This document shows positions 9,814-42,355 of a stretch of DNA of 64,000 nt, in pieces. This stretch comes from Nitrospirota bacterium (lineage in GTDB: Bacteria; Nitrospirota; Leptospirillia; Leptospirillales; Leptospirillaceae): the NCBI GenBank assembly GCA_021826965.1, contig JAKAYA010000006.1, positions 1-64,000 of the forward strand. The letters run 5' to 3'. The notes under the pieces are model-generated. The model worked only from the letters and a program-made list of their open reading frames with translations, ran no database searches and was not told the origin of the DNA. Numbering within the stretch: position 1 is the first letter of the stretch; the number at the start of each line of letters is the position of its first letter. Made by a program: the position numbers and the translations under genes.

Positions 9814-12450
9814 ATGGATGACGCGGCGGCTCTGAACCGGAATGCCGGAACCGGCCCTCCTTCCTTCGACGACATCGGGGAGTTCGCCCGAAGAGTCTTC
9901 GACACCTGCGAGGCCGGCGTCGGCGTCGTCGACGCGGCGTCCGGACGGTATGTGTTCGCCAATACCCGGTGGTGCGAGATGCTGGGGTACGACCGGGAGG
10001 AACTGATTCGCCTGTCGGTCCGGGATGTGACCCATCCGGACGACTGGGAGGCGACGAAGTCCTGTGTGAAGGAAGCCAGTGAAGGTTCCCGGGAAAAGTA
10101 CTTCATCGAAAAACGCTTCGTCCGAAAGGACGGAAGCGTTTTCTGGGGATTCCTTCTCGTCCGGGTCTTCCGCGATCCGGTGACCGGCGACCGGCTTCTG
10201 AACGGAATCGTGCTGGACTTCGACGAGAAAAAGCGGATCGAGTTCCAGCTTCTGAACGAACGGAACATCACCCGCGCCCTGTCGGAGATCAACGCGCTCA
10301 TTTTGAAGCGACCGTCTCCGGAGGAGCTCTACCGGGAATCCTGCCGGATCGCGGTGGAGTTCGGAGGGTTCATGGCCTCCTGGGTGGCGGTTGTCGACCC
10401 TGACACGCTCGACACCCACAAGTCGGGTCTTTACATCAAGGATCCCCGTGTCCAGGAAGGAATCGACCGGGTCATCATTTCGGTGGATCCGGAAAAACCC
10501 AACGGTCGCGGATCGGTGGGGCAAGCCTATCGAACCGGAAAACCCGTTGTCCTGAACGATTACCTGGAAAATCCTTCCACGCTCCCCTGGCAAAAGGAGG
10601 CGCGGATGTTCGGGGTCGCCTCCGCCGCGGCTTTTCCCATCCGCAAAGGCCAGGACATTGTCGCCCTTCTCGTCATCCTGTCGAACCGGGCCAATTTTTT
10701 CGAAACGGAAAGCGTCGGGTTGCTGTCCCGGATCGCCGAGGCCATGTCCTACGCGCTCGACGATTTCGAACGGGGGCAGGATCTGTTTTTGACCTCTCTC
10801 GTCGTCGACGCCGTTCCGGAAGGGATCTTCATCACCGACACCCGGGGCCGGATCACCCGGGTGAACGAGGCGTTCTGCCGATTGTCCGGATTTTCCTTCG
10901 CGGATCTTCTGGGCCAGGAAGCCGACATGTTGACGGAGGGTCTCGAGAAGGGGGTTCTCTGCTCCTCGATCCGGGAGTCCGTCGAGCAGCGCGGTACCGT
11001 CGAGGGGATTTTCGAGCTCGTTCGAAAGGACAGATCGCCTTACATGGTCGAAGCCACCATCACGCTGGTGGAAGAGCCGGGGCGAGAAAGCCGCCACGTC
11101 GTCCTGCTTCTGAAGGACGTGACGGCCAAAATGGAGCGGGAAAAACAGATCTGGCGTCTCGCCAATATCGACGACCTGACGGGGCTCCTGAACCGCACCG
11201 CCCTGATCGAACGACTGGCAACGGAAATGGAGAAGTCCCGCCGGAAAGAGGAGGCACTGGCCCTCTTCTTTCTGGACTTCGACGATTTCAAGGGGATCAA
11301 CGACACGCTGGGACACAGTGCCGGCGATTGGTTTCTCCGGGTGATCGGCAATCGTCTGTCGAGTTCCTTCCGGCCCACGGACATCGTGGCCCGTCTGGGC
11401 GGAGACGAATTCGTCGTGGTGGTCGCGCTGGAATCGGACGAACACATCCTGGCCTTCGCCCAGAAAATCCTGGACATTCTGGGGGCTCCCGTTTCCATCC
11501 AGTCCCAGACCGTCCAGACGTCGGTTTCCGTCGGCATCGCGACCTTTCCCCGGGACGCCTCTTCCGTCGAGGACCTTCTCCGGAAAGCGGACATCGCCAT
11601 GTACCAGGCCAAGGGGAAGGGCAAGAACACCTGGCAGTTCTTTAACCTCGCGATGGAAGAACGGATCCGTGTGCGGTTCGAGCAGGAACAGATGCTCAAG
11701 ACCGGACTGCAGGAAGGGGCCTTCTTCCTGCACTTCCAGCCCCAGGTCGACGTGTTCCGCAACCGCCTGGTCGGCGTCGAGGCTCTGGCGCGATGGCCCG
11801 GTCCTGTGGGCGGGACCATCGGGCCTTCGACCTTCATCCCTCTGGCGGAAGAGACAGGGACGATCCTCGCGTTCGGCGAGTGGGTCCTCCAGGAGGCCTT
11901 CCGGGTCATTCAGGTCTGGTCCGAGGCCGGTCGGCCCCGCATCCGGATGGGGGTCAACGTCTCGTCCCGGCAGTTCTGGAGCCCGACCTTCTGGACCTTT
12001 CTCCGGGAGATTCTCTCCCGCCATTCGGAGTTGACCCGCTGGCTCACGTTCGAGCTGACGGAAACCGTTCTCATGCGCGATCCGGACATGGCCGGCGAAC
12101 AGCTGGCCTGGCTCAAGGATCTGGGAATCCGGATCGCGATCGACGATTTCGGGACGGGATATTCCTCCCTGACGTATCTGTCCCGGTTTCCCGTGGACGA
12201 GATCAAGGTTTCCCAGGATTTCGTCATCCGGATGGCGAAGAGTCCCCGGGACCTGAAGCTCGTCAAGACCATCATCCAGATGGGGAAGAGCCTTCGTCTG
12301 AACCTGGTGGGGGAAGGAGCGGAAACGGAAGAAGAGGTCCGCATGCTCGAAGCCCTCGGCTGCCATGTCATCCAGGGGTTCGCCCTCTCCCGCCCCTTGC
12401 CCATGGAGGAGGTTGAAGTTTACTGGGACCGGTTTCGGGAAGGGGTCTGA
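9814..12450 (+). CDS. PAS-GAF-PAS-GGDEF-EAL cyclic-di-GMP protein
   Basis: An 878-residue soluble signalling protein. The order is PAS (about 20-140), GAF (about 155-320), PAS (about 325-440), GGDEF (about 450-615) and EAL (about 630-875). The GGDEF motif is at 529-533 with a product-inhibition site RPTD five residues before it. The EAL motif is at 656-658 (VEALARW), and DDFGTGYSS begins at 777. Both cyclase and phosphodiesterase sites therefore look intact, so the net activity may be set by the sensors. There is no membrane segment, so the signal is cytoplasmic. A SixA-like phosphatase gene follows 32 bp downstream. Confidence 0.93.
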   Translation: MDDAAALNRNAGTGPPSFDDIGEFARRVFDTCEAGVGVVDAASGRYVFANTRWCEMLGYDREELIRLSVRDVTHPDDWEATKSCVKEASEGSREKYFIEKRFVRKDGSVFWGFLLVRVFRDPVTGDRLLNGIVLDFDEKKRIEFQLLNERNITRALSEINALILKRPSPEELYRESCRIAVEFGGFMASWVAVVDPDTLDTHKSGLYIKDPRVQEGIDRVIISVDPEKPNGRGSVGQAYRTGKPVVLNDYLENPSTLPWQKEARMFGVASAAAFPIRKGQDIVALLVILSNRANFFETESVGLLSRIAEAMSYALDDFERGQDLFLTSLVVDAVPEGIFITDTRGRITRVNEAFCRLSGFSFADLLGQEADMLTEGLEKGVLCSSIRESVEQRGTVEGIFELVRKDRSPYMVEATITLVEEPGRESRHVVLLLKDVTAKMEREKQIWRLANIDDLTGLLNRTALIERLATEMEKSRRKEEALALFFLDFDDFKGINDTLGHSAGDWFLRVIGNRLSSSFRPTDIVARLGGDEFVVVVALESDEHILAFAQKILDILGAPVSIQSQTVQTSVSVGIATFPRDASSVEDLLRKADIAMYQAKGKGKNTWQFFNLAMEERIRVRFEQEQMLKTGLQEGAFFLHFQPQVDVFRNRLVGVEALARWPGPVGGTIGPSTFIPLAEETGTILAFGEWVLQEAFRVIQVWSEAGRPRIRMGVNVSSRQFWSPTFWTFLREILSRHSELTRWLTFELTETVLMRDPDMAGEQLAWLKDLGIRIAIDDFGTGYSSLTYLSRFPVDEIKVSQDFVIRMAKSPRDLKLVKTIIQMGKSLRLNLVGEGAETEEEVRMLEALGCHVIQGFALSRPLPMEEVEVYWDRFREGV

Positions 12451-14417: not shown

Positions 14418-14676
14418 GTTTCCTCCTGGGTTCGCACGGTGGCAGATGGCAGGGTGCGGGAAAGACGCCTCCGGCAGAAATCCGGCGGCCCGTCCCGGAC
14501 GGGCGAAGCGTTCCCCCATTCACTCTAGCGGATTTTGTCTTCGACCGGTAGCCGTGTCAGAAGTTGGTCCGAAGGAGTTGCTGTTGATCCGGGCCGCCAA
14601 AAATGGCTATGGTAAGAAACCGGTCGCCAGTCCTCTCCCTCCAGGACAGCTCATCTTTCACGGAAAGGCTTGCCGT

Positions 14677-16586
14677 ATGAAGGAACACGACAGGCACCAC
14701 GATTTTCTCCCTCCGGCCCCGTTTGTCCCGGGTCCACGGGACCTGGGGCCCCTCGGCGCTTCGGCCGTCCCGGACGGCACCCTCTTTCGGGTCTGGGCGC
14801 CGTTGGCCGGATCGGTGGAGCTTCTGATCGACCGACCCGGCGAACTTCCCCGCCCGATGACTCCCGAAGGACAGGGGTATTATCGCCTGACCGCGTCCGA
14901 CGCCCCTCCTGGCACGCTCTACCGCTTCCGGCTGGACGGCGAAAGACCGCTGCCCGACCCGGCTTCGCGCTTGCAGCTTCATGGAGTCCACGGACCTTCG
15001 GCCGTCTGGTTCCCCCCCGGCGCAGAAACAGTCCGGAAGGGATTTTCGTCCGTCCCTCCGTTTTCCGGCCACACTCTGGAAGACCTGATTTTCTACGAGA
15101 TTCATACGGGAACCTATACGCCGGAAGGCACCTTTTCCGGCGTGGTCCGGCGACTCGACCACCTGGCGGACCTCGGCGTCACGGCCCTCGAGCTCATGCC
15201 CCTGTCCCAGTTTCCCGGAGAGCGCAACTGGGGATACGACGGGACCTTCCCGTACGCCGTCCAGTCGTCCTACGGAGGTCCGGACGGCCTTCTGGAACTC
15301 GTCCGGGCCTGCCACGCGCGGGGCCTGTCGGTGATTCTCGACGTCGTCTACAATCATCTGGGTCCCGAAGGCAACTACCTGGGCGCCTACGGTCCCTATT
15401 TCTCCCGGACGAGCCGGACCCCCTGGGGCGACGCCATCAACTTCGACGAGGCCCAGAGCGACCACGTCCGGCATTTCTTCCTCGAAAATCTGCGGTATCT
15501 GGCCCGGACGTTCGACATCGACGGTTTCCGGTTCGATGCGGTCCACGCCATTCGCGACCAGTCCGCCCATCCGTTCCTTGCGGACGTCTCGGTCCTGGCC
15601 GGACGGATCGGCAAATCCCGGGGCAGACCCCTCCATCTGGTGGCGGAATCGAACCTGAACGACCGCCGTCATGTCCTTTCCCCGGAACGGGAAGGCATGG
15701 GCTTCGAAGCCCAATGGTCCGACGATTTCCATCATGCCCTGCGCGTTTCGTTCACCGGAGAGCGGGATGGATATTATGCCGACTTTTCCGGCGGGAAGGA
15801 TCTGGCCCGCGCACTGGAAAGGGGATTCGTCTACCAGGGGCAGTTCGCTCCGTCCTTCGGACATCGCCGCGGGTCCTCCGGGGGAGATCTTCCGGGATCC
15901 GCGTTCGTCGTGTTCGCCCAGAACCACGACCAGGTGGGAAACCGCCGGGAAGGAGACCGTCTTTCCCGATCTCTTCCCGATGAAGCCCTGATGTGTGTGG
16001 CGGCCCTGGTTCTCCTGGCGCCGTCCCTTCCGCTTTTGTTCATGGGAGAAGAATATGGGGAAAGGCGCCCGTTCCAGTATTTCTCGAGCCACGGCGATCC
16101 GGATCTTGTCCGGGCCGTCCGGGAAGGCCGGAAACGGGAATTCGCTTCCTTCGGCTGGACCGGGGAGGTTCCGGATCCCCAGGATCCGCAGACCTTCGAG
16201 GCATCCCGTCTGGTCACGGATCCCTCCGGATTTTCGTCCGGAAGCCGGGAAGGCCGTATCCTGGCGTTTTACAAAAAACTCGTCCTTCTGCGGAAATCCC
16301 GCCCCGCCTTCCGGCTTCCCGACCGGATGGACGCCGCCGGGCACCGGGTGGCGGGACCCCGTTACGGCGTTCTCGCCCAACGGCGGGAGGGACAGGACGG
16401 ATCCCGTCTTCTGGTGCTCTGGAATCTGACGGATCGGGAGCGTCCCGTTCCGCCGGTCTGGCTTCGCCGCGATCTCGGATGGGAAGGAGAAGGCCGCCTG
16501 CTCCTCGATTCCCGGGAAGGCGACTCCGGGCGTCCCCACTTCCTGTTGCCCTACCAGGTGCGGGTTCTGGAAGGGGAGGACATCCG

Positions 16587-16590
<4 letters not shown>
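14677..16590 (+). CDS. treZ: Malto-oligosyltrehalose trehalohydrolase
   Basis: A 637-residue GH13 enzyme that cleaves free trehalose from the end of maltooligosyl-trehalose made by TreY. An N-terminal beta-sandwich (LFRVWAPLAGSVELL, residues about 30-110) precedes the (beta/alpha)8 barrel. The TreZ-type motif YEIHTGTYTPEG comes before ALELMPLSQFPGERNWGYDG. Catalytic residues are Asp287 (DGFRFDAVHA), Glu324 (VAESN) and Asp418 (QNHDQVGNR). The start at ATG 14677 has GGAAAGG about 9 bases upstream; a longer in-frame start upstream has no family similarity. The stop overlaps treY in GTGA. First gene of a four-gene coupled operon. Confidence 0.94.
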
Positions 16591-19477
<2,887 letters not shown>

Positions 19478-19481
<4 letters not shown>

Positions 19482-21148
19482 GCGAGCAGTCCCAAATCTG
19501 GATCCAGCAGGGGGTCCTCTACGAAATCTATCTCCGGAGTTTCGCCGATGCCACGAAAGACGGAGTGGGAGACTTCCGGGGTCTGGCGGAACGGATGCCG
19601 TACATTGCCCGTCTGGGGGTGAAGGCCGTCATCCTGAACTGCCCGTTCCAGTCCTTTTCCGGCAACATGCGCCATCCCCTCGTGGACTGGATGCGTCTCG
19701 ATCCGGTGCTGGGGACGCTGTCCGATTTCCTGATGGTGCTGGAAAAAGCCCACTCCCTGGGAATCCGGGTCGTTCTTTCCTTGCCGGTGAACGCGACCAG
19801 CGACCAGCACGTCTGGTTCTCCGAATCGAAAAATCGCCAGTCCCGCTATCTGAGGAAGAGCTATTTCTGGTCCGAACGCCTGAAGCTTGCCCAGGCCCCG
19901 GACAAGGAGACCCCCGAGGTCGCGAACTGGTCCCAGGACGACGACACCGGGCAATATTACTGGTACCAGGACCACAAGGACGAGCCCGCGATCAACTACG
20001 CCGACCCGGAGATTCTGGAAGAGATCCGGCGCGTGTTCGAGCACTGGCTCACCCTCGACATCGACGGCTTCCGTCTGGCGGGATCCGGTCGTCTCCATCG
20101 CATGAAGAACGGGGAGATCGAGCTGGTCACCGATCCGTTCAGGGTTTTCCAGCCCATTCTGGATCCCCTGAAGAAAAGCTTTCCCGACCGGGTGTTCCTG
20201 TTCGAGGTGGGTTCCCCCAGCCGTACGGAACTCCGGAAGGATCCCCGTCAGTACTACCATCTGAGCGGGTTCTTTCCGTCGGTCATCAGCGCCATCCGCT
20301 CGGAAAACAAGGATCCCCTGGCCCAGATGGTCCGGGAAGGGGGCAAGGAGATCCATGCCCGCAAGGACTGCCCCATTCACTGGACACTGGACCTGCGGGA
20401 GAGGTCGGAAGAGACGTTCGAAAAGTTCGCCGAATCCGACGGAGACACATGCGTTTTTCCGCTGGCTCCGGAGGTTCCGTCGGAGCGCCCGGTCCTTTCC
20501 CGCGTGGCGCGTCTTATGGAAAACGGACGCCGCCGCATCCAGCTGGTGATGAGCCTCTTTCTCACCTCTCCCGGGATACCGGTGATCTATTACGGCGATG
20601 AAATCGGCATGGGGGATCACCCCCACCTGCCGGGACGCAACCCCGTGCGCACGCCGATGCAGTGGTCCGCGGACCGCAACGGGGGATTTTCGACGGCCGA
20701 CCCCGAAGAGCTTTACAACCCGGTGATCGACGACCCCCTTTACAGCTATACGATGGTCAACGTCGAGAGCCAGGAGCGGTTCGCGGACTCCCATCTCTGG
20801 AACGTCCGTCAGATGATTGCGATCCGAAACCGCCAGACCGCCCTTTACGCGCACGGGCAGTTCGGTGTCATCGAAAGCGGCCACCCGTCGATCTACGCCT
20901 TTTTCCGACGGGCCGGAGGCGAGGTGTGCCTTCTGATCCACAACCTGTCGAAGACCTCGGTCTGCGGATATCTCGACCTTTCGGATTTCGCCGGTCTGGT
21001 CCCCCACGAACTGTTCGGGGACACGGTGTTTCCCCGGATTCCCCTCCATCCGTATCTCGTGACCATGACACCATACTCGTTCATCTGGTTTCGTCTTCTT
21101 CCTCCGCCGAAGCCGCGGGGCAGCCGTAAAACGGAGGGTCGGACATGA
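19478..21148 (+). CDS. TreS-like GH13 protein lacking catalytic residues (probable pseudoenzyme)
   Basis: A 556-residue paralogue of the trehalose synthase encoded directly downstream. Similarity is clear along the whole barrel: GVLYEIYLRSFADATKDGVGD at the start, then IPVIYYGDEIGMGD, RTPMQWSADRNGGFSTADP and the C-terminal beta domain. Aligned by eye with the neighbour, the catalytic nucleophile Asp is replaced by Ala201 (DGFRLAGSG instead of DGLRCDAVP). The transition-state Asp of RNHDE is Ser310 (RERSE), and the NH of MNHTSN is NA. Only the acid/base Glu243 remains. The frame is unbroken and coupled on both sides by ATGA overlaps, so it is a maintained protein rather than a decaying gene. 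It may be a regulatory, scaffold or sugar-binding partner of TreS; this is inference. Confidence 0.85.
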
Positions 21149-22830
21149 GCGGCATCAAACCTGAGCCGGGATGGTACAAGGATGCCATCATCTACGAAGT
21201 GCACGTGAAATCGTTTCTTGATTCGAACAGGGACGGGTGGGGAGACTTCCCCGGCCTGACGGCCAAACTCGACTATCTGCAGAAGCTCGGAATCACCACC
21301 CTCTGGCTTTTGCCGTTTACCGACTCCCCCCTGAAAGACGACGGGTATGACATCCGGGACTACTACAAGGTATACCCGTCCTACGGCACGATGGAAGAGT
21401 TCCAGGTCTTCCTTTCGGAAGCCCACAAACGGGGCCTCCGGGTCATCACCGAACTGGTGATGAACCATACGTCCAACACGCATCCGTGGTTCGTTTCGGC
21501 ATCGTCGTCCCGCTCTTCACCGTTTCGGGACTACTATGTCTGGAGCGATACCCCCGACCGGTACAAGGGGACCCGGATCATTTTCAGCGACACGGAAAAG
21601 TCCAACTGGACCTGGGAGCCGAAGACGCGCCAGTATTACTGGCACCGGTTTTTCCATTCCCAGCCGGATCTGAACTTCGACAACCCCAAGGTTCAGGACG
21701 AACTCCTGACCGTGGTGAAGTTCTGGTTCTCCCTGGGAGTGGACGGCCTGCGCTGCGACGCGGTTCCGTACCTGTTCGAACGGGAAGGGACCAACTGCGA
21801 GAACCTTCCGGAAACACATACCTTCATCAAGAGGCTCCGGGCCGAGATCGACCGGGAGTTTCCGGACCGGATGCTCCTGGCGGAAGCCAACCAGTGGCCG
21901 CAGGACGTGCTGCCCTATTTCGGGGAAGGGGACGGGGACGAATTTCACATGGCCTACCATTTTCCCTTGATGCCGCGGCTTTTCATCGCCATCGCGCAAG
22001 GGGACCGGAAGCCCATCACCGACATTCTCCAGCAGACCCCTGCGATTCCGGCCAACTGCCAGTGGGCGATCTTCCTCCGGAACCACGACGAACTGACGCT
22101 GGAGATGGTGACCGACCAGGAACGGGACTACCTCTGGACGACCTATGCCGAAGATCCCCGGATGCGCCTGAATCTCGGCATCCGCCGGCGGCTGGCCCCC
22201 CTCATGGGCAACGACCGTCGCAAGATCGACCTGATGCACAGCCTCCTCCTGACGTTGCCGGGTACGCCGATCCTGTATTACGGCGACGAGATCGGCATGG
22301 GGGACAATGTTCACCTGGGAGACCGGAACGGCGTCCGCACGCCCATGCAGTGGTCATTCGACCGGAACGGGGGATTCTCGACGGCCGATCCGTCGGACCT
22401 CTACGCCCCGCCGATCCAGAACCCGGTCTACGGCTACCAGGTTGTGAACGTGGAAACCCAGATCCGCTATCCCACCAGTCCCCTGAACGTGCTCCGCCAG
22501 ATGATCGAGGTCCGGCAGTCGAGCCACGTTTTCGGACGGGGGGCCATGACCGTCCTCCACCCGAAGAACCGTCATGTTTTCGCCTGTCTGCGGGAGATGG
22601 GAGACGAGGTGGTGATGGTCATCAACAACCTGTCGGACCGCACCGAATCCGTCCTTCTCGATTTGTCCCGCTTTCGGGGATATACGCCGGTCGAACTCTT
22701 CAGCCAGACCCCCTTTCCGGTTCTCGAACGGGCCCACTTCCATTTCACGGTGAGTCCTTACGGGTATTTCTGGCTGGCTCTGCGGCCTCCGGCTTTCTCC
22801 GTCCGTCGCCGGAAAAGGACCGGTCGATAG
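21145..22830 (+). CDS. treS: Trehalose synthase (maltose alpha-D-glucosyltransferase)
   Basis: A 561-residue GH13 enzyme interconverting trehalose and maltose. The N-terminal WYKDAIIYEVHVKSFLDSN and the run GWGDFPGLTAKLDYLQ are TreS-type. Catalytic residues are all present: Asp205 (DGLRCDAVPYL), Glu247 (LAEANQWP) and Asp315 (RNHDELTLEM), with the usual 42-residue gap between the first two. There is no fused maltokinase; that gene sits next to glgE at 34048. The ATG overlaps the stop of the degraded paralogue, so both should be made in similar amounts. This is the last gene of the operon. Confidence 0.93.
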   Translation: MSGIKPEPGWYKDAIIYEVHVKSFLDSNRDGWGDFPGLTAKLDYLQKLGITTLWLLPFTDSPLKDDGYDIRDYYKVYPSYGTMEEFQVFLSEAHKRGLRVITELVMNHTSNTHPWFVSASSSRSSPFRDYYVWSDTPDRYKGTRIIFSDTEKSNWTWEPKTRQYYWHRFFHSQPDLNFDNPKVQDELLTVVKFWFSLGVDGLRCDAVPYLFEREGTNCENLPETHTFIKRLRAEIDREFPDRMLLAEANQWPQDVLPYFGEGDGDEFHMAYHFPLMPRLFIAIAQGDRKPITDILQQTPAIPANCQWAIFLRNHDELTLEMVTDQERDYLWTTYAEDPRMRLNLGIRRRLAPLMGNDRRKIDLMHSLLLTLPGTPILYYGDEIGMGDNVHLGDRNGVRTPMQWSFDRNGGFSTADPSDLYAPPIQNPVYGYQVVNVETQIRYPTSPLNVLRQMIEVRQSSHVFGRGAMTVLHPKNRHVFACLREMGDEVVMVINNLSDRTESVLLDLSRFRGYTPVELFSQTPFPVLERAHFHFTVSPYGYFWLALRPPAFSVRRRKRTGR

Positions 22831-24117: not shown

Positions 24118-25263
24118 CTATCCCTTCCGGTCGGGAACCGGTTGCCTGAACATTGTCCAGAAGCGTTGCCGGACTGTCTTGTTGGACTTGCTTTCGTAAA
24201 GGGCCTGGTCGGCCAGTCGGAGGAGCATGTCGGGATTCTTGCTCCACTCCCGGGGAAAGAGGCAAACGCCCGCGCTCAGCTGGACCATGACCGATGCACC
24301 GTTTGCAAGCCGGATGGGCTGGCGGATGGCGATGCCGATTTTTTCGAGGATCGCCGCCAGGGCGTCTTCGTCCCGGATTCCTTCGAGGAGGAGGACGAAC
24401 TCGTCACCTCCGAGGCGCGCCAGAAAGTCGGACTGCCGGAGGCAATCCTTCAGCCGGGAGGTCGTTTCGAGAAGAACCTGGTCTCCCGCTTCGTGCCCAT
24501 GCGCGTCGTTGATCGGCTTGAATCCGTCGAGATCGAGCATGCAGACCGCCAGGGGGATCTGGTAACGCTCGGCCCTCTCGATGGCGCCTTCGAGGCTGTC
24601 TTCCAGGAGCCTCCGATTCGGAAGATGGGTCAGGGCGTCGTGAAAAGCGAGAATTTCCACTTCGTTCTTGATCTTTTCCAGTTCCTGTCGTTCCTGGTGG
24701 CGGTTCAGGGCCAGCCCCAGGGCGATGGCAAGCTCTTCCAGCGTGTTGATCAGTTCGGGGCTGAAATGCTGAAGCTCCCCGCTTTCGATCACGAGGACGG
24801 CGACAGGTTTGCCGCTTTTTTCCAGTTTGACCGGAAAGGCCATGACGCTTCGTACCTGTCCGTACATGGGGCGGATGTCCTCGACCTCCCGTGTCAGGTC
24901 CGACCGGCCGGGGTCCATCGGACCTTCTCTTTGTCCGGTCTGGAAAACGTTCCGGGCCACGACAGTCGGGCAGATCGCTCCGACGGGGGACGAACGTAAT
25001 CCGTCGCCGTTCTTTTCCCCGTCTGTCGGGGGCGCATCCACATCCCGGGCGGCTTCGATCAGGAACAGATCGTTTTGGACATCCTGAACGATGATGGTGG
25101 CCCCGAGGGCTTCCGTCTGCAAGACGATGTTGTCCACGAGCTTCTGGTACATTTCCCGGGGATTGTCCAGATGAAGAAGATCCCGTTGGCTCTGGAGAAT
25201 GACGGTCTGATACTGAAGCAACCGCCGCAACACCCCCACTTCATCGTCTCTGCCTGACTGCAT
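24118..25263 (-). CDS. GAF-GGDEF diguanylate cyclase
   Basis: A 381-residue soluble protein. Residues about 40-190 form a GAF-like sensor (KLVDNIVLQTEALGATIIVQD, then VMAFPVKLEKSGKPVAVLVIES, FSPELINTLEELA). A short coiled linker leads to a GGDEF domain at about 215-375. The GGDEF motif is at 285-289 with the inhibition site RQSD five residues before it. FHDALTHLPNRR and DLDGFKPINDAHGHEAGD are standard. It is predicted to make c-di-GMP in response to a cytoplasmic ligand or redox signal. The next gene downstream in the same direction is the desaturase, about 165 bp away. Confidence 0.92.
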   Translation of the reverse strand: MQSGRDDEVGVLRRLLQYQTVILQSQRDLLHLDNPREMYQKLVDNIVLQTEALGATIIVQDVQNDLFLIEAARDVDAPPTDGEKNGDGLRSSPVGAICPTVVARNVFQTGQREGPMDPGRSDLTREVEDIRPMYGQVRSVMAFPVKLEKSGKPVAVLVIESGELQHFSPELINTLEELAIALGLALNRHQERQELEKIKNEVEILAFHDALTHLPNRRLLEDSLEGAIERAERYQIPLAVCMLDLDGFKPINDAHGHEAGDQVLLETTSRLKDCLRQSDFLARLGGDEFVLLLEGIRDEDALAAILEKIGIAIRQPIRLANGASVMVQLSAGVCLFPREWSKNPDMLLRLADQALYESKSNKTVRQRFWTMFRQPVPDRKG

Positions 25264-25592
25264 GTCTGCACATCTCCGAACCTGGGCAGTCTCGAGAGTC
25301 CGTCTCTTCCTGCCAACATTGTATCCTGCGAAATGGCCGTTCCTTTGATCCTTTCCCGAATCCGGGAAGGATTTTCCCGGTCAAGGGTCCGCTTCCGATT
25401 CTTCAGGACGTCGCGTTTTGTCGAAGCTCGTCAACACCCATTTCCCTGACGGGATTTTCGGAAGGACCCAGAATGAAATTACACTCATCAATTTTTGATT
25501 TCAAATCGAAGACAGGAGGCTCTCTCCGGTACAGATCCGCAAGCGAGTCAAGACGGGCAAGAGTGCCGGAAGGAAAGCGGACGCGGGGATCG
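25264..25592. other. Intergenic stretch, no supported gene
   Basis: Between two minus-strand GGDEF genes. A minus-strand frame near 25403-25592 reads plausibly as protein but lacks a credible start, so I do not call it. I see no hairpin or promoter that I can defend. Confidence 0.4.
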
Positions 25593-28130
25593 TTACCGGT
25601 TCCCTTCCTCGAGGATGTCCGATCGTCGATCGGGCGGGTGTCCGTCCAGGACGGTGCGGTTTCGTCCGGAGTGTTTTGCAAGGTAGAGCGCTCTGTCGGC
25701 TCGTGTGTACAGAGCATTCCAGGAGGAATCCTGCGGTTTCGGAAGGGCGCAGCCGATGCTCACCGTCAGGGGTCTGTCCGGGATGTCGGGCAGCGAAGCG
25801 GAACAGAACGCCCGGTTGATCCGTTCCCCAAGCCTCTGCAGATCTTTGGGCTCCAGCTTCCCTCCGCACAGGATTGCGAACTCTTCCCCTCCGACCCGGA
25901 AAACCCGGTCGACATCGGGGCGGCAGTTCCCTTTCAGGAGGGATGCGACATGCTGCAAAACCCGGTCTCCGGCATCGTGGCCGAACGTGTCGTTGATGCT
26001 CTTGAACCGGTCGACATCGATCAGGAGAAGTCCGAGAGTAGGTTGTCCGTCTTCCATGGACCCGAACGCGTCTTTCATGCAACGGGAGAAGTGGCGGCGG
26101 TTGTAGAGACGTGTCAGGGGATCGGTGATCGATTCGAGGAGGAGCTTCCGGTTGGTTTTTTTCAGTCGGAGTTCTGTCTTTTCCCTCTCCCGTTCCGCTC
26201 GGGTCCGGTTCAGCTCCGACTGGACTTTCAGAGACAGAAGTTCGACGAGTTCGACGACATGGTGTCGGTGGGAAAGTCCGGCCCACGGGGTTTCAAAAAA
26301 AATGGCGATATGTCCGATCTGGTTTTGGGCGTCGTCGAAGAGGGGGACTCCAAGGAACGACTCGAAGCGGGTTCCTCGCGCGCTTTCGAAAAGGCGGTAA
26401 ACTTCCTGGTTCACCCGGACCGTGGAGCCGGTTCGAAGGGACGACCAGTCCTTCGTCTTTTCTTCGCCGGCGTAGACGAGTTCGCAGGGGGTGCCCGGAA
26501 CCCGGAACGACCAGCCGCTTTTTTCTTCGTTTCCCCGGAGGGATGCGATCACTTCGACTTCCTCGTCGTCGTCGGGATTCCGGGAGGCGATGAAAACGAA
26601 ATCGGCTTTGAAATGGTGGACAAGGGTCCGGATCGTCGCGCGGAAGAAAGCCTCCCCCGTCAGACCGGACGTCTCCCGGATCATCTGTTTCAGAACGGTA
26701 TGGGGATCGAACGGAATCGGACCGTCCGGTTCGACCGGACGGGGGGTGTGATGCCTGGAGAGGACCGGTGGCGAAAAGCCCGAGTGCAGACGGTCTTCCA
26801 GCGGACCTCCGGAGGATACGGGCGGAGAGATCAGACCGCCCTGGGCGTAGTCGCAACCGTATTCTCCGAGTCGCGCGAAGGCATCTTCCGACTCGACGCC
26901 TTCCGCGACGACCGACATGCCGAGGTTGTGGGCGAGTCCGATCAGGGAGCGAACGAGGGCGGCGTCCCGGGTATCGGTCGTCAACCGGGCGATGAAGGAC
27001 TCGTTGAGCCGGATTCCATTGACAGGGGAGTGCGCAAGAGACCAAAGGGAGGTCTTTTCGATCCCGAAATCGCCGATCGTCAGGGAAACACCCATCCGGG
27101 AAAGGGACTCAAGATGGGATGCCTGTCGACGGGATTCGCTTGAGAGCGCGCGTTCCGGAATTTCGAGGGCCAGACGGTCCGGGCGGGTGCGGGTTTTTCG
27201 GAGAATGTCCCGGATCATCTCCGGAAGTTCCGGATGGTTCAGGATGCGGGAGGACAGCCGGACGCTCACGGATCCGCTGCCATCGGGAAAGAGTTCCGGC
27301 CGGCACGTCCGAAGGGCTTCGTGAAGGATCCGGTGCGTCAGAGGCGTGATCAGGCTGGATTGTTCGGCGGCCGGCAGGAACCTGTCATGCGTCAACAGTC
27401 CGAGAGAGGGATGGTTCCATGCCGCAAAGACTTCGACCCCGGAGATTTTCCCTTTTTGCAGGTCGATCCGGGGTTGGTAGACCAGGGAAATCTCTTCGTT
27501 CTCGAGCGCGCGTTCGAGGTCGGCCAGAAGCGCAGTCTCCACGATGCCGGTGGAGTCCGGAACAAAAAGAGCGTCCGATCCGGTCTCCTTTGAGCGGTGA
27601 AGGCCGACGCGCGCACTTTGAAAAAGCCGGTCGGCCGTGTCGCCATCTTCCGGAAAAATCGCCACGGCGGTCGAGGCCTTCAAATGCCGGACGGTATGCC
27701 CCGCTTCAAAGGGACGCTCGAAACAGGAACGAAGTGTCCCGGTGAAGCGATCGACGTCTTCCCGGTTGACGGGTAGCCAAAGGCCGAACTCGTTCTCGCC
27801 CGTCCGGCCAACCAGTTCTCTTCCGGACAGAACGGAGGCGATCCGTTTTTCCGCTTCCGCCAGGATCCGGTCTCCGGCATCTTTTCCCAGATTCTCGTTC
27901 GCGCCCCGGAAAGAGTCGAGTTCGAGGAGAACAAGCGCTGCGCCTGTTTCAGGGTTCCCTTTTTTGAGGTCCTTTCGGAGATTGCGGAGGAAAAGGGAGA
28001 GATCGGAGAAACCGGTCGGGGGATCCGGTCCCGATTTCGGGACGCTTTCGCCGGCCGCTTCCGATCTGTCGGCCCGGGTCTTTCGGGAAGCTGGCCCGTG
28101 CCGGGATTCTTTTTTCGGGGGGACTTTCAC
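25593..28130 (-). CDS. Degenerate GGDEF/EAL + GAF + active-type GGDEF protein
   Basis: An 845-residue soluble protein with unusual order. Residues about 40-200 form a GGDEF fold whose motif is GENEF at 111-115. Residues about 205-455 form an EAL fold in which EAL is EVF (233-235) and the DDFG motif is GDFG (from 353). A GAF domain follows at about 495-655. The C-terminal GGDEF domain (about 680-835) has an intact GGEEF at 747-751, DVDRFKSINDTFGHDAGD, but no RxxD inhibition site (PDVD instead). The N-terminal pair is therefore probably a nucleotide-binding sensor, while the C-terminal domain is the cyclase. The frame is uninterrupted and the start ATG 28130 opens directly into a charged N-terminal tail. 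Confidence 0.88.
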   Translation of the reverse strand: MKVPPKKESRHGPASRKTRADRSEAAGESVPKSGPDPPTGFSDLSLFLRNLRKDLKKGNPETGAALVLLELDSFRGANENLGKDAGDRILAEAEKRIASVLSGRELVGRTGENEFGLWLPVNREDVDRFTGTLRSCFERPFEAGHTVRHLKASTAVAIFPEDGDTADRLFQSARVGLHRSKETGSDALFVPDSTGIVETALLADLERALENEEISLVYQPRIDLQKGKISGVEVFAAWNHPSLGLLTHDRFLPAAEQSSLITPLTHRILHEALRTCRPELFPDGSGSVSVRLSSRILNHPELPEMIRDILRKTRTRPDRLALEIPERALSSESRRQASHLESLSRMGVSLTIGDFGIEKTSLWSLAHSPVNGIRLNESFIARLTTDTRDAALVRSLIGLAHNLGMSVVAEGVESEDAFARLGEYGCDYAQGGLISPPVSSGGPLEDRLHSGFSPPVLSRHHTPRPVEPDGPIPFDPHTVLKQMIRETSGLTGEAFFRATIRTLVHHFKADFVFIASRNPDDDEEVEVIASLRGNEEKSGWSFRVPGTPCELVYAGEEKTKDWSSLRTGSTVRVNQEVYRLFESARGTRFESFLGVPLFDDAQNQIGHIAIFFETPWAGLSHRHHVVELVELLSLKVQSELNRTRAEREREKTELRLKKTNRKLLLESITDPLTRLYNRRHFSRCMKDAFGSMEDGQPTLGLLLIDVDRFKSINDTFGHDAGDRVLQHVASLLKGNCRPDVDRVFRVGGEEFAILCGGKLEPKDLQRLGERINRAFCSASLPDIPDRPLTVSIGCALPKPQDSSWNALYTRADRALYLAKHSGRNRTVLDGHPPDRRSDILEEGNR

Positions 28131-28617: not shown

Positions 28618-29442
28618 ATGAAGAGGATCCGGCTTATGATTTTCGGGATCGTTCTGGGATCGGTTCTGATGAATGGCTCATTGGCCTGGGCCCTGATTCC
28701 GGTGGTTCCGTTCACCCCGGAAGAATATCTCGATGTCGTCACGGGGCCGGACAATTGTGGCTTGTCGTGCCAGACGAACACGTCCTTGCTTGTTCCAAAT
28801 GCCAGCACGAATCTGTCGGTCACATCTTCCGCGCCTTCCGGCTCCGCTTCGATCGACCTGACGGCGGCGGGGTTGCCGGATCTGTCTGTCTTTGCAGGAA
28901 ACACGGCCGGGACATCGACGAACGCGACCGCCAGTTATATCAACACGATCCGTTTCGTCTATACCGGAGCGGGTCCGGCTCCCGCCACGCTTACATCTGC
29001 CATCGGATGGACAGTCGCTGCCACGATCCTGTCGCCGCCCGGCATGCCTTCCGGTGAAGTCGGGGGAGCGGCCAGCATCGCCATCAGTCTTTCTTCCTGT
29101 TCTTGTCCGGCCCGGTATGCGTCGGTCCAAATCGGCCAGACCGGATCCTACGCCCTCTCCAACCCGTTCACGATCCCCGACGGAGGATCGATCGCCTACG
29201 AAGCCGGACTTTCGGCGTATGTCTATGGTTCTTCGACCCTGACCGGTTCGTCCTCTCTGGATCCGGCCCTGTCCATCACTCTTCCTCCGGGGTGGACGGG
29301 GTATCCGGGAAGCGGTGGCATCCTTGGGGAACCGGCCGTGGCGGCGACGCCGGAGCCGTCTTCCCTGCTCCTTCTGCTTCCGTTTTTCGGGGGGTGGGCG
29401 ATGTGGACCTTGTCCGGCGGGTTCAGGCGATGGGGTTGGTGA
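28618..29442 (+). CDS. PEP-CTERM sorting-signal protein
   Basis: A 274-residue exported protein. It has an N-terminal signal peptide (MKRIRLMIFGIVLGSVLM..., cleavage probably near AWA) and a Ser/Thr/Ala-rich body with four clustered cysteines. The C-terminal tripartite signal is PEPSS, then a hydrophobic stretch LLLLLPFFGGWAMW, then basic FRRW. Such proteins are processed by an exosortase (EpsH/XrtA type) and are commonly tied to exopolysaccharide. No exosortase is in the window. The body has no recognised domain. The last 20 bases overlap the end of the convergent GGDEF gene. Confidence 0.85.
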   Translation: MKRIRLMIFGIVLGSVLMNGSLAWALIPVVPFTPEEYLDVVTGPDNCGLSCQTNTSLLVPNASTNLSVTSSAPSGSASIDLTAAGLPDLSVFAGNTAGTSTNATASYINTIRFVYTGAGPAPATLTSAIGWTVAATILSPPGMPSGEVGGAASIAISLSSCSCPARYASVQIGQTGSYALSNPFTIPDGGSIAYEAGLSAYVYGSSTLTGSSSLDPALSITLPPGWTGYPGSGGILGEPAVAATPEPSSLLLLLPFFGGWAMWTLSGGFRRWGW

Positions 29443-30607
29443 CGCAGATCTGGTTCTTGCCCTGGTTCTTGGCCTGATAGAGCGCGCTGTCGGCCAGTTC
29501 GAGCAGATCGTCCATCTTCTGGGCTCCATGCATGTCGGTGCCGGTCAGGCCGAAGCTTGCGGTGATCGTGAGCGAACCGGTTCCCACGAGGACCGGCATG
29601 CAAGCGATGTAGCTCCGGATCCGCTCGGCGACGAAACGGGCCTGCGCGATTTCGAGTGCCGGCATCACGATGATGAATTCATCTCCGCCGAACCGGCTGA
29701 AGAGATCGACTTTCCGGACCAGGGTCCGGACGCCGTGGGCGATCTTCCGCAGGACCTCGTCTCCCGCGTTGTGTCCGAACTTGTCGTTGACCGTCTTGAA
29801 GTCGTCCAGGTCGAAGATCAGAAGCGACAGGACCGGGTCCCGGAGGAAGCTCAGACGGTGCTGGAGTCCCCGGCGGTTCAGAACCCCGGTCAGCGGATCG
29901 ATATTCGCTTCCCGTGTGACCTTCCGGTTGTGCTTCTGGAGGGTTCCCATCCGGTTTTCCATCGTCTGGACCAGGTTCTGGATATGGTTCATCTGGGACT
30001 GGAGCTTGGCCGCTTCCCTGGACAGATTGGCCAGAGTCGAGGCGATGCCTTCGGGACGCGTCTCCGCTCTTCCTCCGGTGTCGGACGGGTTTTTCCGGGA
30101 CTCCGGAAGGTCTTCCGGTTCCGTCAGGCGGTGATTGAAGAGGGGCCTTTTCCGGCTTGTGGACGATTCGCGCGAAGGGTCGTGGGACAGGACGGTCGGG
30201 AGCGGAGGCTCCGGAAGAGGGGCCCTGGGAACCTTCCGGATTTCGTTCCGGGACAGCAGCATCCGCTCCAGAAGCGTCTCGATCTGTGGGTGGGTCTGAA
30301 GGGCAACCTGATCCGAGTCCAGGAGGTTCCGGATCGCGTTCAGGTCCCGGGCCAGATGGGGCTGATCCGAAGTTTCGGACAGGCACAGGGTCAGGTCCAG
30401 AAGCTTCCGGAAAAGGTCTTCCATGGACGGAAGGTCCTTTTCGTAGAAGAACCGGGTGAAGTTTTCCGGCGTCGGGGGCAGGGAGAGCTCGAGAAGCTTG
30501 AAGAGAGCGTTTTTGGCCCGGGTCTTGGGTTCTTCGACTGTCCTCATTTCGAAGGAATCCTCCGTCTGTCCGCGAAGTCGTCGTATCCAGTGTTCCGCCT
30601 GGTCCAT
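29423..30607 (-). CDS. GGDEF diguanylate cyclase with helical N-terminus
   Basis: A 394-residue soluble protein. The first 220 residues are mostly charged and helical, without a named sensor domain, and contain a Pro/Ser-rich linker around 130-185. A predicted coiled coil (LANLSREAAKLQSQMNHI) follows. The GGDEF domain occupies about 230-390 with the motif at 307-311 and an RKVD inhibition site five residues before. DPLTGVLNRRG and DLDDFKTVNDKFGHNAGD are standard. It probably makes c-di-GMP. It follows the small degenerate-GGDEF gene in the same direction with about 210 bp between. Confidence 0.9.
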   Translation of the reverse strand: MDQAEHWIRRLRGQTEDSFEMRTVEEPKTRAKNALFKLLELSLPPTPENFTRFFYEKDLPSMEDLFRKLLDLTLCLSETSDQPHLARDLNAIRNLLDSDQVALQTHPQIETLLERMLLSRNEIRKVPRAPLPEPPLPTVLSHDPSRESSTSRKRPLFNHRLTEPEDLPESRKNPSDTGGRAETRPEGIASTLANLSREAAKLQSQMNHIQNLVQTMENRMGTLQKHNRKVTREANIDPLTGVLNRRGLQHRLSFLRDPVLSLLIFDLDDFKTVNDKFGHNAGDEVLRKIAHGVRTLVRKVDLFSRFGGDEFIIVMPALEIAQARFVAERIRSYIACMPVLVGTGSLTITASFGLTGTDMHGAQKMDDLLELADSALYQAKNQGKNQICVTNPIA

Positions 30608-32053: not shown

Positions 32054-34051
32054 ATGCCCAGAAAACGCGCCGCGTCCTCTTCCCCTCCTCCCGATGCGGG
32101 TCCTCGTGGCCGGCAGAGGGTCGTCGTCGAACGTCTTTTCCCGGAGGTCGACCAAGGGGCCTGTCCTGTGCGCCGGATTCCCGGGGAGCCTGTGGAGGTT
32201 CTGGCCGACGTCATCGTCGACGGCCACGAGCCCCTGCGGGTTCAGCTGGATTTCCGCCCTCCCGGAGAATCGGACTGGCAGACCTTTCCGATGCATCCGG
32301 AAGGCAACGACCGGTGGAGAGGGGTACTGGTCTTCGACCGTCCGGGAACGGCGGGTTTCCGGGTCCGGTCCTGGGTGGACGAGATCGCTCACTGGCAGGA
32401 GGGGTTTTCGAAGAAAGTCGGCGCCCGCCTGATGGAAGACTATGCCCTGGAGCTTCTCGAAGGCGCGGAAATCGTCCGGCGGCATGCCGACCGGGCTCCC
32501 GACGAAGCGGTGCGCAAGGACCTTCTGGAGTGGGTCTCCCGGTGGGAGACCCGACCGGATTCTTCCGAAGCTGTCGAACTGGCGCTGGATCGGGGGATGG
32601 GCGCTCTGGCCGGTTCTTTCCCGGATCCCCGTTTCGTCACCGAATCCGCGGCGGAGCGCGCGGTCCACATCGAACGGGAGCGGGCTCTCCGGGGAGCCTG
32701 GTACGAATACTTTCCCCGAAGCGCGGGACCGGTTCCCGGTCGCCACGCCACGCTCCTGGAAGCGATGGATCGCCTTCCCCGGATCGCGGCGATGGGATTC
32801 GACGTCGTCTACCTTCCTCCGGTCCATCCGATCGGGGAATCCTTCCGGAAAGGTCCGAACAACACCCCGAATGCCGGGCCGGACGTTCCGGGATCGCCCT
32901 GGGCGATCGGCGCCCGGTCGGGGGGACACACGGCGATCGATCCCCGGCTGGGGACGCTGGAGGATTTCCGGACGTTCGTGAAAAAGGCCGGCGAGGCGGG
33001 TCTCGAAGTGGCGATGGATCTTGCTTTCCAGTGTTCCCCCGACCATCCCTATGTGACGGAGCATCCCGACTGGTTCCGGCACCGTCCCGACGGAAGCATC
33101 CATTACGCCGAGAACCCCCCCAAGAAATACCAGGACATCTACCCTTTCGATTTTTTGACGGACGACTGGGAGAATCTGTGGGCCGAGCTCCGGAATGTGG
33201 TTCTGTTCTGGGTCGGACAGGGGATCCGGATCTTCCGGGTCGACAATCCCCACACCAAGCCCTTCGCTTTCTGGGAATGGCTCATCCGGGAAGTCCGGAA
33301 ATCCGAACCGGATGTCGTCTTCCTCGCGGAAGCCTTTACGCGCCCGAAGGTCATGTACCATCTCGCCCACGCGGGTTTTTCCCAGTCCTATACCTTCTTT
33401 ACCTGGAAAAATACCCGGGCGGAGCTGGTCGACTACATGACCGAACTCACGACCGCTCCGGTCCGGGACTTCTTTCGTCCGAACCTCTGGCCCAACACGC
33501 CGGACATCCTTCACGCCTATCTCCAGACAGGCGGACGGCCGGCATTCCTGGTCCGCCTGATGCTCGCGGCGACTCTTTCGGCCAGCTACGGCATTTACGG
33601 TCCGGCCTACGAATGGTGCGAAAACACTCCCCTGAAGGAGGGGAGCGAAGAGTACCGGAATTCGGAGAAATACGAAATCCGGCACTGGGAGCCCGAACCG
33701 CCTCACGCCCTTTCGGGGGTCATCACCCGAATCAACCGCATCCGGCGCGAACATCCCGCACTCGGCTGGAACCACACGCTGGTCTTTCATCCGGTGGACA
33801 ACGACCGGATCCTGGCCTTTTCCAAGACGGATCCGGCGTCCGGGGACTGGATCCTGGCGGTGGTCAACCTGGACCCGTTCAACGTCCAGACGGGATGGCT
33901 GTCGTTCGCTCCCGACGGACAGGGAGACCTCGCCGTGGAGGACCTGATGACCGGCAGCGTCTATCACTGGTCGTCCGGACGGCATTTTCTCCGTCTGGAT
34001 CCCGTGGATCCGGGAGTCCTTCCGTTTCACATTCTCCGGAGGGTGTCGTGA
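32054..34051 (+). CDS. glgE: Alpha-1,4-glucan:maltose-1-phosphate maltosyltransferase
   Basis: A 665-residue GH13_3 enzyme that adds maltosyl units from maltose-1-phosphate to alpha-glucan. The N-terminal domains (about 20-180) include a beta-sandwich (VEVLADVIVDGHEPL...). The barrel follows with YLPPVHPIGESFRKGPNNT, the GlgE hallmark. Asp397 (FRVDNPHTKP) and Glu426 (LAEAFTRP) are the catalytic pair, 29 residues apart as in characterised GlgE. ATG 32054 has an excellent site TAAGGAGG. It is translationally coupled to maltokinase through GTGA. Confidence 0.95.
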   Translation: MPRKRAASSSPPPDAGPRGRQRVVVERLFPEVDQGACPVRRIPGEPVEVLADVIVDGHEPLRVQLDFRPPGESDWQTFPMHPEGNDRWRGVLVFDRPGTAGFRVRSWVDEIAHWQEGFSKKVGARLMEDYALELLEGAEIVRRHADRAPDEAVRKDLLEWVSRWETRPDSSEAVELALDRGMGALAGSFPDPRFVTESAAERAVHIERERALRGAWYEYFPRSAGPVPGRHATLLEAMDRLPRIAAMGFDVVYLPPVHPIGESFRKGPNNTPNAGPDVPGSPWAIGARSGGHTAIDPRLGTLEDFRTFVKKAGEAGLEVAMDLAFQCSPDHPYVTEHPDWFRHRPDGSIHYAENPPKKYQDIYPFDFLTDDWENLWAELRNVVLFWVGQGIRIFRVDNPHTKPFAFWEWLIREVRKSEPDVVFLAEAFTRPKVMYHLAHAGFSQSYTFFTWKNTRAELVDYMTELTTAPVRDFFRPNLWPNTPDILHAYLQTGGRPAFLVRLMLAATLSASYGIYGPAYEWCENTPLKEGSEEYRNSEKYEIRHWEPEPPHALSGVITRINRIRREHPALGWNHTLVFHPVDNDRILAFSKTDPASGDWILAVVNLDPFNVQTGWLSFAPDGQGDLAVEDLMTGSVYHWSSGRHFLRLDPVDPGVLPFHILRRVS

Positions 34052-35613
34052 AGCCGGGAGAGGAGGCTCTCCCCCTCCTCGACGCTCCGGGGGACTGGAG
34101 GAGCTTTCCCGAATGGGGACCGGCCTCGAACCTGCCCATGATTCTTGGAGGATATCTCCCCCGGTGTCGCTGGTTCGGAGACAAATCGAGACGGATCGCG
34201 GATGTCCGGATCGAGTCGGCCGTGCCGCTCGGGACGGAAGGGGATCCCGTATTTCTGTGTGTCGTTTCCGCAACGTTCTCCGAAGGTCCCGCCCGGCGTT
34301 ATTTTCTTCCGTTGGGCCTGGGTTCCCCCGGCCAGTCCGGTCCGGCCGGTCCGGTGGCCCGATGGCCGGGTGCCGGAGACCGGGTTGTCGTCGATGCCCT
34401 GTTCTCTCCGGAAACCGCACAGGAGCTGCTGGGTCTCTTTTCGTCCGGGGAAGAGCGCCCTGCCGGTTTCCAGGTGGTTTCAACCCCCCTTTTGCCCGGC
34501 CTCCTGGCGTCCCCGCCGGAAGGGGTGCCACGGGCGTTCGGCGGAGAACAGAGCAACACGTCGCTCCTCTTCGGCCGTTCCCTGATCCTGAAATGCTACC
34601 GGAATCTCGAAACGGGAACGAACCCGGATCTGGAGGTGGGGGCGTTTTTGGCCGAAGCCGAAACGCCCGCCCCGATTCCCCCCACGGGCGGCGCGCTCGT
34701 GGGATTTACGCCGGAAGGCCGTTCCCTGACGGTGGCGCTCCTTCAGGGATTCGTCGACAACCGGGGGGACGCCTGGAGTTTTTTGATGGAACGTCTGAAG
34801 GAGATCCTTTCCGGATGTGCCCTGGATGAGGACTGTCCGGAGGCGGTCCGGGTCGACCGCTGGATCGAGCGGGCGGGGCAACGCACCGCCGAACTCCACC
34901 AGGCACTGGGACGGGACCCCGGTCATCCCGACTTCGCTCCCGTTCCCCTGTCGGATGAGGACGTCGAGGATCTGGTGCATGCAATCGATTCCCGGCATGA
35001 ACGGGTGATGCGGATGCTGGCGAAAGTCCGTCCGTCGCTCGACGAAGTTCTGCAAAACCGGATCGACTGTTTTTCGGGAGTATCCGGCCGACTCGGAAAA
35101 ACGCTTTTGGCCTGCCGCGGGGCGGTCCGCGGGGAATACGCGATCCGTTGCCACGGAGATCTGCATCTCGGGCAGATCCTGGTGACCCCTGGAGGTGATG
35201 CCGTTTTTCTCGACTTCGAGGGGGAGCCGGCTCTCCCGATCGAGGAACGGCGCAAGAAAACGTCTCCCCTGATCGACGTCGCCGGCATGCTTCGATCCTT
35301 CCATTATCTGACGGCTTCGTTACGGCCGGATGAGTCCGATCGCACCCGGGAAGACTGGCTCGATCGATGGCTTCACCGGCAGTCCCGGCGCTTCTGGAAA
35401 TCGTATCTCAAGTCGATGGAGGGCGGGCCGGTCTGTCTCCTGGGGGAGGACGCTTCGACCCGCGCGCTTCTGAGCCTGTATCTCATCCGCAAATCCCTTT
35501 ACGAAATCGAATACGAAATCAACAACCGGCCCTCCTGGATCGGCATCCCCCTGGCGGGCCTCGAAGCCATGCTCGACGGGGAAGGACCGGCGGGGGCAAC
35601 CGACTCGCCTTGA
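34048..35613 (+). CDS. mak: Maltokinase (maltose-1-phosphate forming)
   Basis: A 521-residue kinase of the aminoglycoside-phosphotransferase fold. The N-terminal cap region includes GGYLPRCRWFGDKSR, a maltokinase/TreS-C signature. FGGEQSNTSLLFG...LILKCYRNLETGTNPDLEV forms the N-lobe. The catalytic loop is CHGDLHLGQIL and the metal-binding Asp is in FLDFEGEP. It phosphorylates maltose with ATP to feed GlgE. GTG at 34048 overlaps the glgE stop. In many bacteria this domain is fused to TreS; here it is separate and paired with GlgE. Confidence 0.9.
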   Translation: MKPGEEALPLLDAPGDWRSFPEWGPASNLPMILGGYLPRCRWFGDKSRRIADVRIESAVPLGTEGDPVFLCVVSATFSEGPARRYFLPLGLGSPGQSGPAGPVARWPGAGDRVVVDALFSPETAQELLGLFSSGEERPAGFQVVSTPLLPGLLASPPEGVPRAFGGEQSNTSLLFGRSLILKCYRNLETGTNPDLEVGAFLAEAETPAPIPPTGGALVGFTPEGRSLTVALLQGFVDNRGDAWSFLMERLKEILSGCALDEDCPEAVRVDRWIERAGQRTAELHQALGRDPGHPDFAPVPLSDEDVEDLVHAIDSRHERVMRMLAKVRPSLDEVLQNRIDCFSGVSGRLGKTLLACRGAVRGEYAIRCHGDLHLGQILVTPGGDAVFLDFEGEPALPIEERRKKTSPLIDVAGMLRSFHYLTASLRPDESDRTREDWLDRWLHRQSRRFWKSYLKSMEGGPVCLLGEDASTRALLSLYLIRKSLYEIEYEINNRPSWIGIPLAGLEAMLDGEGPAGATDSP

Positions 35614-42200: not shown

Positions 42201-42355
42201 TTTATCCGGAAGATGCGGCGAGCCAGCAGGATCTGTTGCGGATGGCCGACATGGCCATGTACCGCGCCAAGAACCGGGGAAAGAACCGGATCGAGTTCAC
42301 CAACGGGGAAGAGAGGCGAAACGACTTTTCTCCGCCGGAAAAGAAGGACGGATGA
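39245..42355 (+). CDS. Membrane sensor with PAS/GAF modules and GGDEF domain
   Basis: A 1036-residue diguanylate cyclase. Transmembrane helices at about 19-42 and 178-198 enclose a periplasmic region of about 135 residues with no named fold. Several PAS modules follow (about 205-315, 325-440, 450-575), then a GAF-like domain (about 585-740) and another PAS (about 745-865). The C-terminal GGDEF domain covers about 870-1020, with GGDEF at 937-941 and an RGGD inhibition site five residues before. DLDGFKEVNDALGHEAGD is standard. It is predicted to make c-di-GMP on combined periplasmic and cytoplasmic cues. No partner gene is in the same operon. Confidence 0.9.
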   Translation: MDRLNLDRLNSFKPPSPRIWTALAMAVLPILFLLGLSFFLLLEKRPRIQADIAGLSRVEYDGDSIERSLIALAFFPRGRQLPLRELRRVTGYLTQVRADALDILSREDLLPFDEKQTVRALPGFSLGAPELPPEDVLSVALAKMSFFEKDVDTRELRLTRSLEEVDRSLERTGSFVAAGFLLLAGFLFAGAREMRRSFSHLALYEALQRSDSAIAFLDPVSGHFLFANEGFLRLARRGPEDLATLDPASLFPDLRGMFPGYGEKNALPPEGLETGLARKDGQRLPVEMRIERSTFQGREVLLLMVSDLSRKKTLEEKNREILRHLETIVQSLGDGLLEFDVEGRILSSNPMARTLLGFSEEELARENSLHALAGGDRDVVAHIRMLLRQVCSKAIVLEEHSLILRRRDRSSIDVQGVFSPETAPGPERPSRVLFAFRDAGPRKAMEADLRASETLNRGIVENSPDGIFILDPDRLVLLEGNVRLAEMIGLPQASSLKGLPLLSFATRSEKEIRQNLERIRLPGGWEILETAFRRPDGRTVPVSINAVGIPFKGKDAVLVTVRDITFRRQVEQSHLLFLELDRLILEGTPPHRLYQKIADRLVAIFPFVHVALFRRGPGGVPVLEAVSSRDPVMQMEIVREGKSFGGMTVPGFQEDRFCEVGDLSPPWSTWREEGRFETLACLPFQFSADSPTGLMEISLEKGETISDALHALLGDIAGRLAFFARHRDELARIRLLEKAFEVTPAPAFLADAEGRIEWANPAYFALVGEKADRVFQTVHPYLEKREKNRANADMWSRLRKGQSTSGEFLHRRRSGPEFLAEIRVSPILDEDKNLVNLVAIETDITRERRKEKELRLLAFHDPLTGLPNRAALEREFEGYLAVARRYRRTLVLLFFDLDGFKEVNDALGHEAGDQLLAELAARLESVLRGGDRLFRLGGDEFLVILNNAGTRSEIEQFAQRLLEVIHQPFELADQEVGIGASIGIALYPEDAASQQDLLRMADMAMYRAKNRGKNRIEFTNGEERRNDFSPPEKKDG

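Follow-up and report, generated by a model that had tools for sequence, protein, structure and literature searches.

A catalytically degraded trehalose synthase paralogue coupled to an intact trehalose synthase in Leptospirillum and its relatives

The trehalose gene cluster of a Nitrospirota bacterium raises the question of why a protein with the fold of trehalose synthase (TreS, which converts maltose and trehalose into each other), in which two of the three catalytic residues of that enzyme are replaced, is encoded immediately upstream of an intact TreS and has been kept there. The cluster lies in a stretch of 64,000 nucleotides (positions 1 to 64,000 of contig JAKAYA010000006.1; hereafter the window), in which the genes follow the order treZ, treY, the degraded copy (hereafter D) and the intact treS (hereafter A), and treZ-treY-D-A is likewise the usual order in the relatives. 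The features of the window that are relevant to the analysis, all on the forward strand, are listed below.

about 14674 to 16590, forward strand: treZ, malto-oligosyltrehalose trehalohydrolase, start codon uncertain (TIGR02402, 658 bits; cut-off 539)
16587 to 19481, forward strand: treY, malto-oligosyltrehalose synthase, with an ATGA overlap with D
19478 to 21148, forward strand: D, pseudo-trehalose synthase (GH13 TreS fold, without nucleophile and transition-state Asp), 556 aa
20078 to 20080, forward strand: Ala201 codon of D (position of the nucleophile Asp)
20204 to 20206, forward strand: Glu243 codon of D (acid/base Glu retained)
20405 to 20407, forward strand: Ser310 codon of D (position of the transition-state Asp)
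20594 to 20791, forward strand: subdomain S8 of D, approximate (around residues 373-438), the best conserved region of D
21145 to 21148, forward strand: ATGA overlap of the D stop and the A start
21145 to 22830, forward strand: A, treS, intact trehalose synthase, 561 aa (catalytic D205, E247, D315)
32054 to 34051, forward strand: glgE, maltosyltransferase (PF11896 match at 32114-32677)
34141 to 35571, forward strand: maltokinase (mak/pep2) region (TIGR02457, 331 bits, below the curated cut-off of 375 of a model named for TreS-fused kinases)

The frame of D carries no internal stop between 19478 and 21148. An earlier note on this DNA had described an uninterrupted gene joined to treY and treS by ATGA overlaps, and both junctions were confirmed, the treY stop and the D start sharing the ATGA at 19478-19481 and the D stop and the A start that at 21145-21148. 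The catalytic triad of the Deinococcus trehalose synthase consists of Asp209, Glu251 and Asp319 (PMC4257617); in D, the Asp-Glu-Asp triad is represented by Ala201, Glu243 and Ser310. The alignment of D to A is locally ungapped both at the nucleophile (DGFRLA201 in D, DGLRCD205 in A) and at the transition-state site (LRERS310EETFE in D, LRNHD315ELTLE in A), and E243 of D is aligned with E247 of A, which bears out the two substitutions and the retained Glu243 as first reported. A supply of the catalytic acids from shifted positions was considered and rejected: no acidic residue is found within three positions of A201 in this alignment, so that a shifted nucleophile is not in evidence, and around S310 the two proteins align gap-free.

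The degradation of the active site is wider than first noted. The DGYD of the -1 subsite (A 66-69) is M-R-H-P in D (xRHP), the region-I His108 of A is Ala106 in D (NH motif changed to NA), the +1-subsite Tyr is replaced by Arg205, and D has no counterparts of Arg148, Asn253 and His318 (Deinococcus numbering), of which Arg148 and Asn253 contribute to closing off the active site of the Deinococcus TreS. The equivalents of A201 and S310 are conserved as non-acidic residues, Ala or Ser occupying the nucleophile position and Ser that of the transition-state Asp in all 17 D orthologues compared (the window's included), with Ser instead of Ala at the nucleophile in one; both catalytic Asp residues are kept in 17 of 17 partner A proteins. 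The acid/base Glu is missing in one D orthologue, that of the genome G004 (L053 8528-10195), which reads FLFGTE. In established GH13 chemistry, TreS works by a double-displacement mechanism and, with these catalytic and subsite residues lost, D as judged from its sequence cannot carry it out.

The best sequence matches of D are nevertheless solved trehalose synthases (E = 3e-101 to 5x7u), at approximately 33% identity. With the TreS model TIGR02456, D scores 408 bits and A 901 bits, respectively below and above the curated cut-off of 678 bits. An AlphaFold model of D was built from a 62-sequence alignment (pLDDT 78, pTM 0.83) and used in place of that of an earlier, poor run with 15 close sequences (pLDDT 59); a Foldseek search with this model returned TreS structures as all of the top 28 matches, with a TM of 0.83 to 3zo9 (M. 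smegmatis TreS). The predicted fold is that of TreS with subdomains B, S7 and S8 and domain C (TMq up to 0.83), S7 and S8 being modelled with low confidence. D thus resembles the GH13_16 trehalose synthases (TIGR02456; 3zo9, 4tvu, 5x7u) in full-length fold, subdomain S8 and domain C, but differs from them in the missing nucleophile, transition-state Asp and -1 subsite and in its score below the TIGR02456 cut-off.

Orthologues of D (57-72% identity) occur in 17 of the 21 genomes of the window's family (Leptospirillum and relatives), the window's own included. The substitutions in D are not a matter of chance, since orthologues at 18 loci in five genera carry the same kind of catalytic losses. 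D lies directly upstream of an intact treS in every case and all 17 genomes that have one of the two genes also have the other, so that a search for the tandem in related genomes, as the earlier note had suggested, shows the pair across the family and not confined to one genome. Both D and A were undetected in the remaining four of the 21 family genomes; in one of these (G007) the match to treY is truncated, and the absence there may therefore be an assembly gap. A D profile run against 396 genomes of the phylum gave 558-675 bits for the family's D copies and no more than about 194 bits for the other matches, which are TreS-type genes, while a D-specific pattern scan of a species-genome collection gave 16 loci under the titles Leptospirillum sp. 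or Nitrospirae bacterium; the score gap and these loci indicate that D is restricted to the family, as far as seen. The plasmid-borne homologues are TreS-like genes of the ordinary kind, with at most 36% identity among the matches listed. A tandem in another family of the phylum (G045, L056 8361-11617) pairs two divergent genes resembling TreS or alpha-glucosidase, the first with NLDE for NHDE; it was considered as a possible D orthologue and rejected, as its first copy keeps both Asp residues.

The stop of D and the start of A overlap by four bases (ATGA, GTGA or TTGA) at 17 of the 18 loci, some of which are near-copies of each other, and at the remaining locus (L045) the two genes are separated by a short gap. 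The junction and spacing between treY and D vary among the loci, unlike those between D and A. The strict stoichiometry of D and A named in the earlier note is a presumption from this gene coupling. Two loci with different D-A pairs, L052 (G006:C30) and L045 (G006:C35), are present in the genome G006, where neither treZ nor treY adjoins the second pair. The G004 genome (99% complete) keeps D-A with no match to TreY, GlgE or maltokinase and no TreZ-like cross-match. Together, G004 and the second pair of G006 leave A as the only constant partner of D. In the phylogenetic tree, the D proteins form one clade and the A proteins another (100/100), and the stem leading to D measures 4.2 changes per site; the branching orders of the two clades largely match, and the extra pair of G006 takes a similar position in both.

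The regions of D have not diverged alike. In the window, the identity between D and A is 20-34% across the barrel, subdomain B, S7 and domain C, but reaches 59% over the beta8 stretch and 68% over S8. The earlier note was therefore wrong in calling the remainder of the barrel conserved; the YYGDEIGMGD motif of D is part of S8. Among the D proteins themselves, S8 is the region of highest identity (91%). Of the sites that are at least 95% conserved across 47 active TreS, D has retained 25 of 28 within S8 but 72 of 157 outside it (Fisher p = 2e-5); its least retained region is S7 (7 of 26), which is part of the active-site gate in TreS. S8 and domain C build most of the dimer interface of the Deinococcus TreS, and the tetramer of M. 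tuberculosis TreS uses subdomains B and S8 (PMC4257617). As S8 is the best retained region and the active site and S7 are lost, D appears to have given up its active site and gate and kept the pairing module.

The loss of catalytic residues with retention of the loop-rich pairing part makes D a probable non-catalytic partner subunit, and we consider it reasonably likely that D and A together form a heteromeric trehalose synthase in which D is the pseudoenzyme. This reading is favoured, indirectly, by the conserved catalytic loss, the purifying selection on D, its co-occurrence with A without exception, the conserved coupling of the two genes and the selective retention of S8. In the ancestor of the Leptospirillum family, an ancient treS copy would have given up the nucleophile, transition-state Asp and -1 subsite while retaining S8, the subdomain by which TreS protomers pair. 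Translational coupling would ensure that D is made next to A, with which it could assemble via the S8 and domain C face used for TreS dimerisation, and D may then stabilise, activate or gate A, possibly sensing a ligand in its altered pocket. What we infer here is the A-D complex as such and the direction in which it would affect A. A more elaborate form, in which the heteromer is obligate and a rebuilt metabolite-sensing pocket of the dead subunit switches A between trehalose and maltose metabolism, is doubtful. Certain observations weigh against the heteromer. An operon inherited vertically as a unit would likewise show the co-occurrence and the agreement between the trees; S8 is a conserved feature of TreS at large that D could have retained for the sake of folding or metal binding, and in D it is modelled with low confidence. 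In addition, A shows no burst of changed S8 residues in comparison with single TreS (2 of 30 sites), and hence no signature of an interface re-tuned on its side.

D might instead act by itself in binding or sensing a ligand (trehalose, maltose, a sugar phosphate or a glucan), with the altered pocket as its ligand site and no stable complex with A, which we regard as unlikely. Thirteen of 20 lost active-site positions, chosen by hand, are fixed in a new form (at least 93% identical within D), several of them basic (R65, H66, P67, P103, A106, Q164, D165, A201, G202, R205, R309, S310 and G386), and to judge from these residues a new ligand site in the former pocket is possible. Over all lost TreS sites, however, re-fixation within D is not above background (34% vs 42%, p = 0.18); the proposal that re-fixation of all lost sites proves a rebuilt pocket was accordingly rejected, only the hand-picked active-site subset looking fixed. 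A lone sensor also accords poorly with S8, not the pocket, being the best-retained part and with the constant coupling of D to A.

The remodelling of the barrel for another reaction, using E243, E311, E315 and D165, would make D a new enzyme. E311, E315 and D165 are invariant in D and E243 nearly so, as such a reaction might require, but there is no nucleophile near the beta4 end of D, the -1 subsite is gone, and E243 is lost in G004, where D-A persists without treY, glgE and maltokinase; this reading is quite improbable.

A further proposal makes D a docking platform for TreY, maltokinase and GlgE, similar to the mycobacterial TreS tetramer with Pep2. The treZ-treY-D-A operon, with glgE and mak next to it in some relatives, is in line with it, and the TreS:Pep2 complex, in which TreS is a hetero-oligomer core in trehalose-to-glucan metabolism, serves as a precedent to which D-A may be likened, although the partner there is a maltokinase and not a dead TreS (PMC6509496). 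The persistence of D-A in G004 without treY, glgE or maltokinase and the second pair of G006 without adjoining treZ or treY argue against docking, which appears very unlikely. In the window, glgE and maltokinase are situated approximately 9 kb downstream of treS (32054-35571). They follow treS directly in G003 and G005 and are nearby in several genomes; since they stand directly behind treS in G003 and G005, the trehalose/glgE cluster may be split in the window's lineage.

Strong purifying selection acts on D. Across 51 pairs with dS under 1.5, the mean dN/dS is 0.16 in D and 0.13 in A, values obtained by a simple counting method and rough because many of the pairs approach saturation of dS; in the ten closest pairs (five loci) it is 0.08-0.14 for D, lower than for A in the same pairs. 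Relaxed selection, with dN/dS near 1 in a single genome, had been named in advance as grounds for refutation and was not seen, D having a value of about 0.16 and being present in 17 genomes; a pseudogene of a single genome was rejected on the basis of the 18 loci and the ratios far below 1. A decaying duplicate hitch-hiking in the operon, as the lost catalytic residues and the frameshift near residue 356 in the D of G016 (L055 1051-2708; real, or a sequencing or assembly error) might suggest, is largely refuted and highly improbable in view of these ratios, the long lists of invariant D residues and the retention of D across the whole family.

The heteromeric reading has parallels among known systems, and D shares with pseudoenzymes that accompany an active paralogue the conserved catalytic loss, the purifying selection and the co-occurrence with the active gene. 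The SLC3 heavy chains (rBAT, 4F2hc) are GH13-like barrels acting as partner subunits. rBAT is among the sequence matches of D; these heavy chains differ from D in being membrane-anchored animal proteins that partner transporters and not a GH13 enzyme, and no hydrophobic anchor was seen in D by eye. In plant isoamylase, the non-catalytic GH13 paralogue ISA2 forms a heteromer with the active ISA1 (PMC12510319), a dead paralogue beside an active one as in D-A, but of another GH13 subfamily, reaction and kingdom, and with a complex demonstrated by experiment where that of D-A is predicted. The Trypanosoma prozyme is likewise a dead paralogue, which activates its sister AdoMetDC by heterodimerisation (PMC5201418); fold and reaction are unrelated to those of D-A, and the direction of the effect is known there and conjectural in D-A.

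No TreS pseudoenzyme or dead TreS partner was found in the literature searched, most subscription journals lying outside it, which agrees with the initial impression that none is described for trehalose synthase, yet dead and active GH13 pairs are known generally, as ISA2/ISA1 illustrates. If the proposed role is correct, D would be the first dead partner of a trehalose synthase, so far as this literature shows, and D-A would offer a simple testable system for examining why a protein is kept once its active site, but not its pairing surface, has been lost. In a genome paper on Leptospirillum ferriphilum, several genes of this context appear under the plain name of trehalose synthases (PMC4769503), and the dead copy has thus probably been counted as an enzyme. 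The hosts are acidophiles (iron-oxidising, Leptospirillum-type), in which trehalose is a likely compatible solute. In sessile cells of L. ferrooxidans, treS is reported to be up more than sixfold (PMC2996932), a value that may refer to either D or A. The trehalose cluster of the window is surrounded by GGDEF/EAL-type signalling genes, at 9814-12450, 24118-28130 and 29423-30607 as recognised by eye and at 39245-42355 by a family match.
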